Source: an uncultured Gemmatimonadota bacterium (GTDB taxonomy: Bacteria > Gemmatimonadota > Gemmatimonadetes > Gemmatimonadales > Gemmatimonadaceae). Taken from it: a DNA stretch of 64,000 nt. Shown here piece after piece: positions 47,243 through 56,381 of the stretch; position 1 is the stretch's first letter; every line of letters starts with the position of its first letter. The notes below the pieces were generated by a model. The model was not told the DNA's origin and did no database searches. It saw nothing but the letters and a program-made list of their open reading frames with translations. The stretch is taken from the NCBI GenBank assembly GCA_903882745.1, contig CAIRYG010000003.1:248001-312000 (forward strand). Reading direction: 5' to 3'. The position numbers and the translations under genes were made by a program.

Positions 47243-47266
<24 letters not shown>
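46589..47266 (+). CDS. Zinc-ribbon, membrane-anchored SH3b protein
   Basis: A 225-residue protein of three parts. An N-terminal zinc ribbon (CSNCGA at 6-11, CPRCQR at 20-25) precedes a transmembrane helix (WYMAGLAVLVIAGVWIAW, about 48-65), then a long Pro/Ala/Thr linker. The C-terminal bacterial SH3 domain reads LPVNVREKSARGAKVLLVLA, then GDTVLVGEQITGWTHVRVDG and DGWVDSRRL. SH3b usually binds cell-wall peptide. The zinc ribbon would be cytosolic. Possibly part of the ArsC-like/TerC/RmuC operon (52-base gap). Its 3' end overlaps the M1 peptidase gene by 24 bases, tail to tail. Confidence 0.85.
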
Positions 47267-49960
<2,694 letters not shown>

Positions 49961-50041: not shown

Positions 50042-52036
50042 TTAAGCGCCCAGGACCGGAATGCCGATACCGGCGAGATAATCGAAGGTCTCGTCGTAGA
50101 ACGCGGGGGGGCGTGTGGGGTCCTCCTCATCACCGGGCGGGATGAAGATGGCCATACCTTGCCTAGCACGGGTCAAGAGAACCCGATAGGCGTTGAGGAG
50201 GTAGCGCTTTCTGATAGGATTTGTAGCACCGACCTTCTGCCACCTCGAGCCCTTGAACTCATTGTACGTCCACTTGTTTGCGGCTATTCGCAGGTCCGCG
50301 TCCCACGTGACAAGCGTCCAGTCGAGTTCGAGGCCCTGCACCTGGAATTCGGTGGCCGCGTCCTCGAGATAATAGCTCGAGCGCGTATCATTCCGGTCAC
50401 TGAGAAACCAATGCACCGGGTTCACTTGGATGCGCACGTCAATCGCATGAGGCTTCAGACGCTGAGCAGCGGAAGAAGCCACAAGCCCGAAGCGCTCCGT
50501 TCCCCTTGCGTTGTTTTTGATCCATCCTTTGGCGGCTTGCAGATCTCGCGTCAGCACAATCGGGTACTTTTCCAGCAACTCACGAGTGCACGACCGCGCC
50601 GCCTCGACTTCGAGATCCAAGATTGCGCGAACCAGATGGGATAGCCGCTCAGCACGAAAGGAGCGCATCGACGTCGCCAGATGGAGGTCGCTTGTGTACG
50701 AGACTCCCGTGTGATCCTTCAGTCTCGCGAGCGCATCCTCCGCCGCGTATTCCGATTCCGCGAGAGTCGAAGACACGTGAATCTTCCAGTTCGGGAATCG
50801 TTCGCGAGCGGCGTCCAACCATGCTGAGATTCCTGCCTCGCCTTTATGGATCTCCTGGCCACCGCCGACGAGACAAACGATGACTGCCCAGTCGACATGG
50901 CGATCGAGATAGGAAATCAAGAAGGCTGACTCCGACTCATCGAAGTCCGGCTGTCCCTTCTTCCGACGCATGAAATCAGAGGTCTGCTTGCGATCCCAAG
51001 CGCGTTGGGCCTCGTCGAAAATCACCAGATGGTCGCCAGGAGCATCCGCACTCCGCAGCGCATCGTCTCGGAAGTGATGGATGTTCTGGATGAACGTCTT
51101 GACGATTCGCCGAGCATCTCCCTTGCGTACCCGCTCCGTACCAGCCGCCTTCTGTTCGATGTAGTCGAGCGCAAGCACCTCTCGCAGCACTTCGACCAAC
51201 GGACCATTCCCAGACAGAAAAACCGAATGTTGCGCGTCCGGGCCAAGTCGCTTAGTCGCAAGGTTGAGTCCGACCAAGGTTTTTCCAGCCCCCGGCACAC
51301 CGGTGACGAAAACGATCGCCTTCTCGCGATTCACCTGCGCTAAATCTGCAATCCGCTCTACACACGCCGAGGTGGTCACGAGGTTCTTGGCCCCTGCATC
51401 GTTGCGCGTAATCGAATCCACCGAATGTTCTCGATAGAGCGCTCGTGCGGCCTCGATAATTGTGGGAGTTGGCCGGTACCGGCTCGCAGCCCAAGATACC
51501 GCGTCGATTGCAACTCCCGTTGCTTGTAGCTCCGCATCCATAAGCAATGCGCGCAGGCCAGCGGCATTGCAGTTCGCAGGCGGAAACACATGGTCGCGGA
51601 ACGGCGACCGAAAGGAGACGTCCGAACGCTTGGCATCGGTCGCGACAAGAATCGGAAAGATTGAGGCCTCGTGACTCGCCTCGTGGAAATTCTTGAGATC
51701 AAGCGCGTAGTCCCACACCTGATCGCGCCCGCTGCGATCGTATTCGCGTGCGCCCACCTTAAATTCGATCACCACGAGTGCGGCGCCGAGGATCACTACA
51801 ACATCGACGCGGCTCCCAATACGCGGCACGATGTACTCGAGGGTGACCGAGCCGTGTAGCCCGTCGAGCGCTTCGTGCAGAATCCCTATCTGCGCGCGCC
51901 ACGCATCGCGCTGTTCCTGTGTGATGTCGAAGCCCGATCCGTCCGCTAGCGTACCAAGGATTCTCGGCGCGGGCTCAGCTACGAAACGCGCAATCGTCTC
52001 GATCGTGTAATAGCTGGCGTTCGCTCCTAGGGGCAT
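50042..52036 (-). CDS. Schlafen-type helicase (DUF2075) with nuclease-like N-terminus
   Basis: A 664-residue protein. The N-terminal part has SRVDVVVILGAALVVIEFKV, a D-(n)-E-x-K arrangement like PD-(D/E)XK nucleases. A P-loop ATPase of the DUF2075/Schlafen group 3 helicase family follows: VFVTGVPGAGKTLVGLNLAT (Walker A), HLVIFDEAQRAWD (Walker B), with C-terminal motifs VQGLELDWTLVTWD and NAYRVLLTRARQGMAIFIPP as in SF1 helicases. ATG 52036 is used; TTG 52045 is upstream. It lies alone between housekeeping genes. A nucleic-acid-targeting, possibly antiviral, role is inference. Confidence 0.82.
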   Translation of the reverse strand: MPLGANASYYTIETIARFVAEPAPRILGTLADGSGFDITQEQRDAWRAQIGILHEALDGLHGSVTLEYIVPRIGSRVDVVVILGAALVVIEFKVGAREYDRSGRDQVWDYALDLKNFHEASHEASIFPILVATDAKRSDVSFRSPFRDHVFPPANCNAAGLRALLMDAELQATGVAIDAVSWAASRYRPTPTIIEAARALYREHSVDSITRNDAGAKNLVTTSACVERIADLAQVNREKAIVFVTGVPGAGKTLVGLNLATKRLGPDAQHSVFLSGNGPLVEVLREVLALDYIEQKAAGTERVRKGDARRIVKTFIQNIHHFRDDALRSADAPGDHLVIFDEAQRAWDRKQTSDFMRRKKGQPDFDESESAFLISYLDRHVDWAVIVCLVGGGQEIHKGEAGISAWLDAARERFPNWKIHVSSTLAESEYAAEDALARLKDHTGVSYTSDLHLATSMRSFRAERLSHLVRAILDLEVEAARSCTRELLEKYPIVLTRDLQAAKGWIKNNARGTERFGLVASSAAQRLKPHAIDVRIQVNPVHWFLSDRNDTRSSYYLEDAATEFQVQGLELDWTLVTWDADLRIAANKWTYNEFKGSRWQKVGATNPIRKRYLLNAYRVLLTRARQGMAIFIPPGDEEDPTRPPAFYDETFDYLAGIGIPVLGA

Positions 52037-52051
52037 GGATCTCAAGTTGTA

Positions 52052-52654
52052 TCAGAACCCATCCACCCGCCAGGGACCCGCCTCCGCCCGCCCCCGCACA
52101 TCACAGCCGTGCATGTGGTCGTTCACCAGCCCCATCGCTTGCATGAAGGCGTAGGCAGTGGTGGGCCCAACAAAGCTCCACCCGCGCGCCTTCAGCTCCT
52201 TGCTGAGTGCGGTCGATTCCGGCGTGCTGGGCATGGCGCGAAGCACGTCCAACGTCATACGCGCTGGTCGCGTGTGCGCTTCGGGTTCAAAGCGCCACAC
52301 AAAATCCGCCAACGACCCCTCGGTCTCAATCAACGCAATACACCGCCGCGCATTGTTGATCGTGCTCTCAATCTTCCCGCGGTGCCGCACAATCCCGGCA
52401 TCGCCTAACAATCGTGTCACATCTTGGGCCCCAAAGCTCGCGACACGCTCCAGGTCGAAATCCGCGAACGCGCGACGAAAATTCTCCCGCTTGCGCAGGA
52501 TCGTGAGCCAACTGAGCCCGCTCTGGAACCCCTCCAGCGAGATTTTCTCAAAGAGCCGACGGTCGTCGCGCACCGGAAAGCCCCATTCGCTGTCATGGTA
52601 CGCGATGTAGTCCGGCCCCGCCTGACACCACGAGCAGCGCGTTACCCCATCCAC
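52052..52654 (-). CDS. tag: DNA-3-methyladenine glycosylase I
   Basis: A 200-residue base-excision repair enzyme removing 3-methyladenine. RCSWCQAGPDYIAYHDSEWG has the N-terminal zinc Cys and His; LEGFQSGLSWLTILRKRENF holds the catalytic region, and the C-terminal ligands are in LVNDHMHGCDV. RHRGKIESTINNARRCI is also typical. GTG 52654 places the start a few residues before RCSWC, as in E. coli Tag. Upstream GTG/TTG codons to 52693 would add an Ala/Val stretch without homology. It stops 15 bases before the Schlafen-type gene start. Confidence 0.95.
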   Translation of the reverse strand: MDGVTRCSWCQAGPDYIAYHDSEWGFPVRDDRRLFEKISLEGFQSGLSWLTILRKRENFRRAFADFDLERVASFGAQDVTRLLGDAGIVRHRGKIESTINNARRCIALIETEGSLADFVWRFEPEAHTRPARMTLDVLRAMPSTPESTALSKELKARGWSFVGPTTAYAFMQAMGLVNDHMHGCDVRGRAEAGPWRVDGF

Positions 52655-52778
52655 TGTAAAAAGACCGCTGGCCGCCACAAACACTCCCGCCAAGAGCGTG
52701 GTAAATCACAAGAGCTCGCCGTATCGTATAATAGATGGGGGTTACACCCCCGTGCGTACACACCCTGCCTATCCGACC

Positions 52779-54110: not shown

Positions 54111-56381
54111 ATGCTCGGATTCGCCTTAGCCCTGCAGATTATTGCCGTCACCGGCGTGACGCAGGGTGTAGACACCAGCACGTACAAAACACCGGCGCTT
54201 CGCGCGTTGGTGCTCGAAGCGGCGCGTATCAATCACCGCGTGCCGGCAACGCTCGGCCGCTATCATGCGCAGCTGGAAAGCGAAATCTCGATCGGCAAGA
54301 CGAATGGTGTCGGTGCAGAAAACTCCCTGACCCTCGAACAAGTCGCGAGCGATCTCACCTGGAATCGACTCGGCGAGTTTGAACAGCATGTGATTGGCTA
54401 CCGCCAGCAGGCGGCCGGCTTGCAGTTCTCAACACTCGGCGTGCTGCAGAACTCGTGGGCCGTGCCCTCGCTGTACGGCAATCGACTGGCGTTGCTTTTT
54501 GGGAGTGACACCGGGCGTCGAGGCATTGGCCGAGGCTCGAATGATCGTCGTACGATGTTTGCGGTGCACCCACTGAGCGACGATCGCGAGCGGTATTATC
54601 GCTATGCCGGCGGCGACACGATCCAAGAATTGAAAGTTGGCGACCGCACGATTCGGATTGTGCGCATCGACGTGGCGCCACATGGCGTGCTGCCCGCGCG
54701 CTCGGTGGTGTTCACCGGTGAAGTGGATCTCGACGTGGACCGCAAACATATCGTGCGGATGCGCGGCGCCTTTGCGGTGGCCGGCGATGAACCACAGGGT
54801 GCGCTGAATGGGATTCTCAAAGCCACGCGCCTCGAGGGAATCGCCTATGTGGAGCTGGTGAACAGCGAGGTCAATCAAGAGTTTTGGTTGCCGAGTTATC
54901 AGCGGTTTGAGGCACAGGCCACCGCGGCGGTGCTTGGCGATTCCAAGGCGGTGTTCCGGATTGTGTCACGATTCCGGAACTATGAAATCGAAACGCCAGC
55001 GCAGGCGCATCTCGCGGTGGCGGACACCCTGCGGTCGGCGGTACATGCGCTGACGAAAGCGACGCTGGATTCTTTGGCCAAGTACGGGACCTGGAACGAA
55101 GAAATCGGAGCAGCGACGTCAGCGACACATGCTGATGATTTCACGGATGTGTCTCCTGCGCGGTATCGTGGTGAAGGTCCGGGCAAGGTGGAGCTCCAAG
55201 GGGAGCGCCTCTCTGATTTTGTGCGCTTCAACAGAATTGAAGGGCTCTATACGGGCGCGGGTCTGACGTACCACGGCAATGCAACATTTCCCGGCTACGA
55301 TTTCCATCTGCAGGGTGGCTATGCCTGGACCGAGCAAACGCTTCGTGGTCGAGCAGCGGTAGAACTCAAGCGCGGTGCGTGGCGGTATGCCATTCGCGCT
55401 GGGCGCTCGCTCGACAACACCAATGACTTCCGCAACACCTTCGACTCTGCCGGATCAGTGGGTTCGTACTTTGGCCAGGATCAATACGACTATGTGAGTC
55501 GTGGTTTCGCCTTGGCCTCAGTACAGCGCGATCTGTTCGGCAGCGACGGGCGTGTGCGCCTTGAAAGTGGCTGGATGCGAGATGAGGCCACGGTGAACCA
55601 TGTGGGCTGGTCCCCGGTCAAAGGGAAACGCTATCTCCCGAATCGCACAATCGCTCCGGGTGATTACCTCCGCACGCAGTTGGTGTTTCAGTGGCATCCC
55701 GATGCGAACGCCGAGTATATGCGGACGGGGTGGGGGGCGCAGTTCAAGTATGTGCGCGGCGATGGCCAGGTAAAATTTCAGCGCCTTGAGGTTCGCGCGG
55801 AAGAGCGTGTGAATCGTGGGCGGTGGACGTACGCTGGGCGATTCGACGCCGGCACGATGTTGGGGAGCGATTTCCCTCCGCAGTATTTGTTTGAGGCCGG
55901 GAGTGAGAGCGGGCTCACCGGCTACAACTACAAGGAGTTCGTGGGAACCGAGGCGGCGCTTCTGCGCGGACTGGCGATGTACCGGCTTGGGGTGCTCGAA
56001 CAGCCGATTCGGCTCACGGAGCGCTTTTGGCTGCCCGGGATCGCGCCGGCCGTGTCATTCAGCATGCAGACTGTGTGGACCGCGATTCCTGGCGGTACCC
56101 CGGCGAGCATCGGGTTGAATGCACTCACAACGCCGCCGCCGTATAGCTGCTCGATTGCGTCGGCGGCGCGGTCGAACGTGCTTGGGATTGGAGAAACGTT
56201 CAATGCGGCGTCGAACGGCGCACCGTGCGCCACAGACTACACCGGCGTCGCGAGCCCGGCCCGCACGACTATTTCGGCAGGGCTGCGATTCTTTGGTGGC
56301 GCGTTCGGTGTCGTGATTGGCCGTCCGATCGACCACAGTGCCCCGTGGAAGCTCGACGTGCAGTTCGGACGGCTGTTCTAG
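54111..56381 (+). CDS. Outer-membrane beta-barrel protein (DUF5686/Omp85-like)
   Basis: A 756-residue exported protein with a short signal (MLGFALALQIIAVTGVTQG). The N-terminal half (to about 330) carries periplasmic regions with a VVFTGEVDLDVDRKHIVRMR strand pair. SDFVRFNRIEGLYTGAGLTY begins a predicted beta-barrel of alternating strands, and the C-terminal strand is KLDVQFGRLF with terminal Phe, the signal used by the BAM complex. The RFNRIEGLYTGAG segment matches DUF5686-type barrels. Its role (uptake, assembly or surface) is unknown. It follows the Tat peptidase gene by 12 bases, so they may be co-transcribed. Confidence 0.72.
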   Translation: MLGFALALQIIAVTGVTQGVDTSTYKTPALRALVLEAARINHRVPATLGRYHAQLESEISIGKTNGVGAENSLTLEQVASDLTWNRLGEFEQHVIGYRQQAAGLQFSTLGVLQNSWAVPSLYGNRLALLFGSDTGRRGIGRGSNDRRTMFAVHPLSDDRERYYRYAGGDTIQELKVGDRTIRIVRIDVAPHGVLPARSVVFTGEVDLDVDRKHIVRMRGAFAVAGDEPQGALNGILKATRLEGIAYVELVNSEVNQEFWLPSYQRFEAQATAAVLGDSKAVFRIVSRFRNYEIETPAQAHLAVADTLRSAVHALTKATLDSLAKYGTWNEEIGAATSATHADDFTDVSPARYRGEGPGKVELQGERLSDFVRFNRIEGLYTGAGLTYHGNATFPGYDFHLQGGYAWTEQTLRGRAAVELKRGAWRYAIRAGRSLDNTNDFRNTFDSAGSVGSYFGQDQYDYVSRGFALASVQRDLFGSDGRVRLESGWMRDEATVNHVGWSPVKGKRYLPNRTIAPGDYLRTQLVFQWHPDANAEYMRTGWGAQFKYVRGDGQVKFQRLEVRAEERVNRGRWTYAGRFDAGTMLGSDFPPQYLFEAGSESGLTGYNYKEFVGTEAALLRGLAMYRLGVLEQPIRLTERFWLPGIAPAVSFSMQTVWTAIPGGTPASIGLNALTTPPPYSCSIASAARSNVLGIGETFNAASNGAPCATDYTGVASPARTTISAGLRFFGGAFGVVIGRPIDHSAPWKLDVQFGRLF

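Follow-up and report, generated by a model that had tools for sequence, protein, structure and literature searches.

AddAB/RecB and Dna2, which belong to the core repair machinery, combine an SF1 helicase with a PD-(D/E)XK nuclease bearing the QxxxY motif. A nuclease and a helicase are also joined in a single polypeptide in Hna and in the Nhi (nuclease-helicase immunity) protein of Staphylococcus epidermidis. For both, replication-DNA sensing has been reported, with escaper phages mutated in SSB or replication genes. Phage replication complexes, including SSB, have been proposed to activate Nhi, which would then degrade phage DNA or replication intermediates (PMC10732053, PMC11084316). The defense systems Gabija, DdmDE, Shedu, and McrBC likewise contain PD-(D/E)XK-type or helicase modules but in other architectures, and Gabija, DdmDE, and McrBC require two genes. 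The eukaryotic group 3 Schlafens (SLFN11, SLFN13, and SLFN14) carry a C-terminal SF1 helicase of family PF09848 together with an N-terminal Schlafen RNase core. In PADLOC, the PDC entries are putative, mostly untested defense candidates that were obtained by a guilt-by-embedding approach (PMC12988326).

The gene described here lies in a window of 64,000 nucleotides, the whole stretch of DNA that was analyzed. It encodes a 664-residue protein that combines, like Nhi and Hna, a nuclease and a helicase in one chain: a predicted PD-(D/E)XK-like nuclease at the N terminus, where the Schlafens have their RNase core, and a C-terminal Schlafen group 3 SF1 helicase (open reading frame and translation, PF09848, and PADLOC). 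Whereas AddAB/RecB and Dna2 are core machinery, this gene is a patchily distributed, horizontally moved accessory gene. The reading that we regard as reasonably probable is that of a self-contained, horizontally moving defense gene of the PDC-S41 family, in which the helicase would recognize replicating DNA and the nuclease would cut it.

Family assignment

The coordinates given in the initial annotation, 50042 to 52036, were confirmed from the open reading frame and its translation. The gene reads on the minus strand from its ATG at 52036 to its stop codon at 50044-50042, and an in-frame TTG upstream (52045) is a possible alternative start. Residues 9 to 662 matched the PADLOC PDC-S41 profile (positions 4 to 653 of 657; E = 3.4e-267) and, judged by sequence, the gene is a member of this already catalogued candidate phage defense family (PDLC05014). 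It shares with PDC-S41 the full-length profile and the single-gene make-up, and none of the tested features differs. The distance of the gene from known kinds is therefore small, and what is added to the catalog entry is its anatomy, including the invariant nuclease residues, an empty and swapped insertion site that speaks against repair, and evidence of modules in the form of a domain chimera. Membership in Nhi was considered and rejected, as the PADLOC Nhi profile matched only 27 residues around Walker A (236 to 262; E = 0.0018), corresponding by sequence to a different family.

A genome scan returned 406 stretches encoding relatives, and the best 80 of the 406, being 48 to 59% identical, were analyzed. 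These originated from Verrucomicrobiota, Pseudomonadota, Planctomycetota, Acidobacteriota, Bacteroidota, Bacillota, Nitrososphaerota, Promethearchaeota, and others, and homologs of about 50 to 59% identity were present in more than 12 bacterial and archaeal phyla among the matches listed. Cultured relatives with a copy include Daejeonella lutea DSM 22385 and Anoxybacillus calidus DSM 25220. PDC-S41 is broad (bacteria and archaea) and compact (one gene of about 2 kb), and has its helicase in common with the human antiviral Schlafens. Residue conservation was assessed in an alignment of 92 homologs, mostly 48 to 59% identical. No paper on PDC-S41, or on DUF2075 in defense, and no biochemical or phage data for the family were found in the literature searched.

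The C-terminal helicase

The helicase domain spans residues 239 to 633 (50138-51322, minus strand) and was assigned from PF09848, Foldseek, and VIA. The match to PF09848 (SLFN-g3_helicase) gave an E value of 3.1e-73 and 247.5 bits against a cutoff of 24. In the Walker A motif GVPGAGKT (residues 246 to 253; 51278-51301, minus strand), G246, G249, G251, K252, and T253 were invariant in the 92 homologs, as were D341, E342, Q344, and R345 in the Walker B (motif II) sequence DEAQR (residues 341 to 345; 51002-51016, minus strand). The motifs GGGQE, QGLELDW, and YRVLLTRARQG were also intact, with the tested positions invariant in the same 92 homologs, 2 rows of which are truncated at the C terminus.

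The predicted full-length structure was compared with the PDB by Foldseek, giving human SLFN11 and SLFN14 as the top matches, followed by Upf1-type and other helicases, and with Dna2 (5ean) and the Gabija complex further represented in the list. By VIA, UvrD scored a Z of 19.9 and SLFN11 a Z of 18.9 over 279 residues. The Schlafen-type helicase claimed in the initial annotation is supported by the PF09848 match and by both structure comparisons. The Schlafen core (AlbA-like RNase) domain was not matched by Pfam in this protein or in 47 N-terminal domains of the family. The Schlafen comparison accordingly holds for the helicase but not for the N terminus.

The predicted N-terminal nuclease

The nuclease core was placed at residues 40 to 132 (51641-51919, minus strand) from AlphaFold2 models and VIA-align. 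The predicted order of elements is alpha-beta-beta-beta-alpha-beta, comprising a helix at 40-57, strands at 63-70, 75-83, and 86-93, a helix at 101-117, and a strand at 125-132. The mean pLDDT was 87.8 for the full protein and 90.5 for residues 1 to 190 modeled alone. The motif earlier proposed as a nuclease active site, VDVVVILGAALVVIEFK, corresponds to residues 77 to 93 and holds the catalytic hairpin D78 ... E91-F92-K93 (51758-51805, minus strand). It is followed by Q106-V-W-D-Y110 (51707-51721, minus strand), the QxxxY signature of RecB-type PD-(D/E)XK nucleases. Zero variation was observed among the 92 aligned homologs at E67, R72, G74, D78, E91, K93, Q106, D109, Y110, and D113. The catalytic signature (D78, E91xK93, the supporting E67, and Q106xxxY110) is therefore complete in 92/92, and this invariance of D78, E91, K93, E67, and Q106xxDY110 argues that the motif is no chance resemblance and upholds the proposed active site. 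In the predicted structure, a pair of strands carries D78 and E91/K93, and the next helix carries Q106/Y110. The same placing is found in RecB-type PD-(D/E)XK enzymes, with the catalytic residues on paired strands and the QxxxY residues on the helix that follows.

Comparison of the nuclease domain with known structures was consistent with this assignment in part. The best VIA-align rows were Can2 (Z of 7.3), the TBP-interacting protein TIP26 (7.1), McrC (6.6), and EndoMS (6.4), and further rows included the type III CRISPR nuclease 6sce, Kpn2I, NucC, Nt.BspD6I, FokI, Card1, AspBHI, Shedu, DdmD, and Argonaute-associated Cas4-family nucleases. These are mostly PD-(D/E)XK enzymes and so form consistent company, every Z score being weak (<8); Can2, McrC, NucC, Card1, DdmD, and Shedu derive from defense systems. 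Foldseek of the domain alone against the PDB gave no significant match (none at E < 0.001). The predicted element order fits a PD-(D/E)XK core and the VIA rows point the same way at low Z scores, but Foldseek does not. The lack of a nuclease fold was looked for as a refuting outcome and did not show in the predicted structure. Among the 47 N-terminal domains, the most common Pfam matches were NERD (12), HSDR_N (5), CoiA_nuc (5), and PDDEXK_4 (2), all of them weak with an E value of 0.006 at best. A sequence profile search of solved structures with the N-terminal domain gave no match, and the search of solved structures by sequence yielded nothing useful, the only profile matches (E = 0.002 to 0.004) being to potassium channel entries. 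From its motifs and topology, the N-terminal domain is very probably a PD-(D/E)XK nuclease.

The proximity of the helicase to SLFN11 and SLFN14 in Foldseek raises the question of whether the protein could instead target translation, as a Schlafen-like tRNA or rRNA nuclease that causes abortive infection once the helicase has sensed infection. This would accord with the cleavage of tRNA and rRNA by SLFN13 (PMC5862951) and with the Schlafen-family RNases reported as prokaryotic defense effectors (PMC12839542). It was nevertheless deemed very unlikely: the N-terminal domain is not a Schlafen core by Pfam, and its motifs (D, ExK, and QxxxY) are those that RecB-type DNA nucleases carry.

The insertion site

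The gene is flanked by tag, encoding a 3-methyladenine DNA glycosylase (52052-52693, minus strand; PF03352, E = 2.7e-71), and by an M1-family aminopeptidase gene (47243-49960, minus strand; PF01433, E = 4.5e-52). On the gene's own strand, tag is co-directional and about 16 bp upstream, and the M1 gene is about 82 bp downstream. The neighbors in the window (M1, M24, and M16 peptidases, tag, and histidine biosynthesis) are ordinary genes that form no defense island, and the description "among housekeeping genes" is broadly correct. Beside the M24 peptidase gene, a 756-amino-acid protein (54111-56381) gave no Pfam match at E ≤ 1; it is kept near M1 in three other genomes (G015, G006, and G008) at 47 to 52% identity.

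The adjacency to tag, in the same direction and at so short a distance, could indicate a repair or replication fork nuclease-helicase resembling Dna2 or AddAB that acts with tag. The architecture of a nuclease plus an SF1 helicase is indeed that of Dna2 and AddAB, and Dna2 was among the Foldseek matches. However, in three congeners (G009, G005, and G003) the site is empty: tag and M1 are adjacent with no third gene, their matches being separated by about 84 to 99 bases. In the sister genome G014, tag and M1 are 97 to 98% identical to those of the window and the PDC-S41 gene is absent. The identity with G014 ends at a junction in the last codons of tag (52075-52080), beyond which G014 has an HNH_2 endonuclease gene (L112:1-666, on contig C71) that ends at the contig end. 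The GC3 of this HNH gene is 0.44, compared to about 0.72 here, marking it as clearly foreign. Since the M1 gene of G014 begins at the edge of another contig, we infer that the HNH gene likewise has tag on one side and M1 on the other. Given the empty site in three congeners and the HNH gene beside tag in G014, tag marks an insertion site and is not a partner of the PDC-S41 gene. Moreover, the gene is missing from most congeners and from about 94% of the sampled genomes of the phylum, and a recurrent repair neighbor was found at none of the 92 homolog loci. A repair role with tag was consequently considered improbable.

Direct repeats flanking the PDC-S41 gene were looked for and none were found. 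Recent transfer judged from base composition was unsupported, the gene having a GC3 of 0.67 against a mean of 0.72 (z of −1.1).

A conserved partner gene was not observed, as no neighboring gene family occurred at more than 4 of the 92 homologous loci. This bears out the description of the gene as stand-alone, and the action of the protein probably involves no fixed partner. PADLOC models matched at E ≤ 1e-15 numbered 40 among 150 proteins neighboring homologs, compared to 3 among 136 control genes taken from the window and congeners (one genus). These counts are of models, several of which can match one protein, and so give the direction of the enrichment rather than its size.

Distribution and gene tree

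Of the 61 relatives, 10 gave a match to PDC-S41, as did 18 of the 298 Gemmatimonadota genomes that were sampled, with partial and diverged matches counted. Universal vertical presence, which the initial annotation had set against a defense role, was looked for, and the presence/absence pattern proved patchy instead. The phyla are intermixed in the gene tree, and the copy of G001, the other long one of the genus, clusters with one from Acidobacteriota (support of 99) and not with the window copy; this was a quick tree that leaves the position of the window copy itself without resolution. An accessory, mobile role is deduced from this distribution, the insertion site, the mixing of phyla in the gene tree, and the PADLOC-rich neighbors of the homologs. 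Nine viral contigs in IMG/VR (L161 to L169) carry PDC-S41 or diverged relatives at 28 to 53% identity, which indicates that phage or prophage DNA can serve as a vehicle for the family.

By tblastn, PDC-S41 matched 4 of 72,556 plasmid records and 1 of 50,697 phage records, and so was rare in both. This scarcity could reflect a nuclease directed primarily against plasmids, conjugation, or transformation rather than against phages, with the same enzymatic mechanism, and the VIA rows do include the plasmid defense helicase-nuclease DdmD as well as the Argonaute-associated Cas4-family nucleases. A chromosomal anti-phage gene would also be expected to be rare on plasmids, however, and PADLOC files the family under phage defense candidates; a primarily anti-plasmid role was accordingly judged unlikely.

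Remnants of the family were also noted. In the congener G009, a 75-amino-acid frame contains a 47-residue stretch of the PDC-S41 C terminus (L131:9359-9499, on contig C25; 62% identical, residues 613 to 659), apparently a decayed copy. Two further PDC-S41-like copies (L132, in G038:C238, and L129, in G012:C43) each have one in-frame TGA and are possibly decaying or misassembled.

Proposed mechanism and relation to Schlafens

The full-length PDC-S41 match, the patchy distribution, the empty tag-M1 site in three congeners, and the other nuclease gene in G014 together favor defense over repair, in agreement with the initial annotation; protection is predicted. The mechanism proposed for PDC-S41 was modeled on Nhi because of the similar architecture, in the sense of working like Nhi and not of belonging to it. 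The C-terminal Schlafen-type SF1 helicase would bind single-stranded or branched DNA arising from phage or plasmid replication and would translocate on it with ATP. It would thereby bring the N-terminal RecB-like PD-(D/E)XK nuclease to the bound DNA, or license it to cut there. Cutting would either clear the invader directly or kill the cell, as in abortive infection. Nuclease and ATPase activity, a DNA rather than an RNA substrate, the trigger, and phage protection are all inferred. A bare candidate is thereby turned into a testable single-gene nuclease-helicase model, offering a route to what Schlafen-type helicases recognize.

A wider suggestion, tentative and rather doubtful, is that the Schlafen-type helicase is an ancient sensor of invader DNA that has been paired with varied effectors, namely a PD-(D/E)XK nuclease in the broadly spread prokaryotic family described here and an RNase core in the animal Schlafens. 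On this view, PDC-S41 would be a counterpart, in bacteria and archaea, of SLFN11 acting at replication forks, with its nuclease as a movable part. That the nuclease may be separable is suggested by a chimera in a related genome (L130:9067-10380, in G029:C31), in which residues 11 to 150 are a PDC-S41-type N-terminal nuclease (PADLOC PDC-S41, E = 7e-36) and residues 144 to 421, fused to it, a SoFic Fic domain (E = 2e-59). The chimera, apparently natural but perhaps an assembly artifact, had no second case in about 290 genomes from the order or in the 298 from the phylum.
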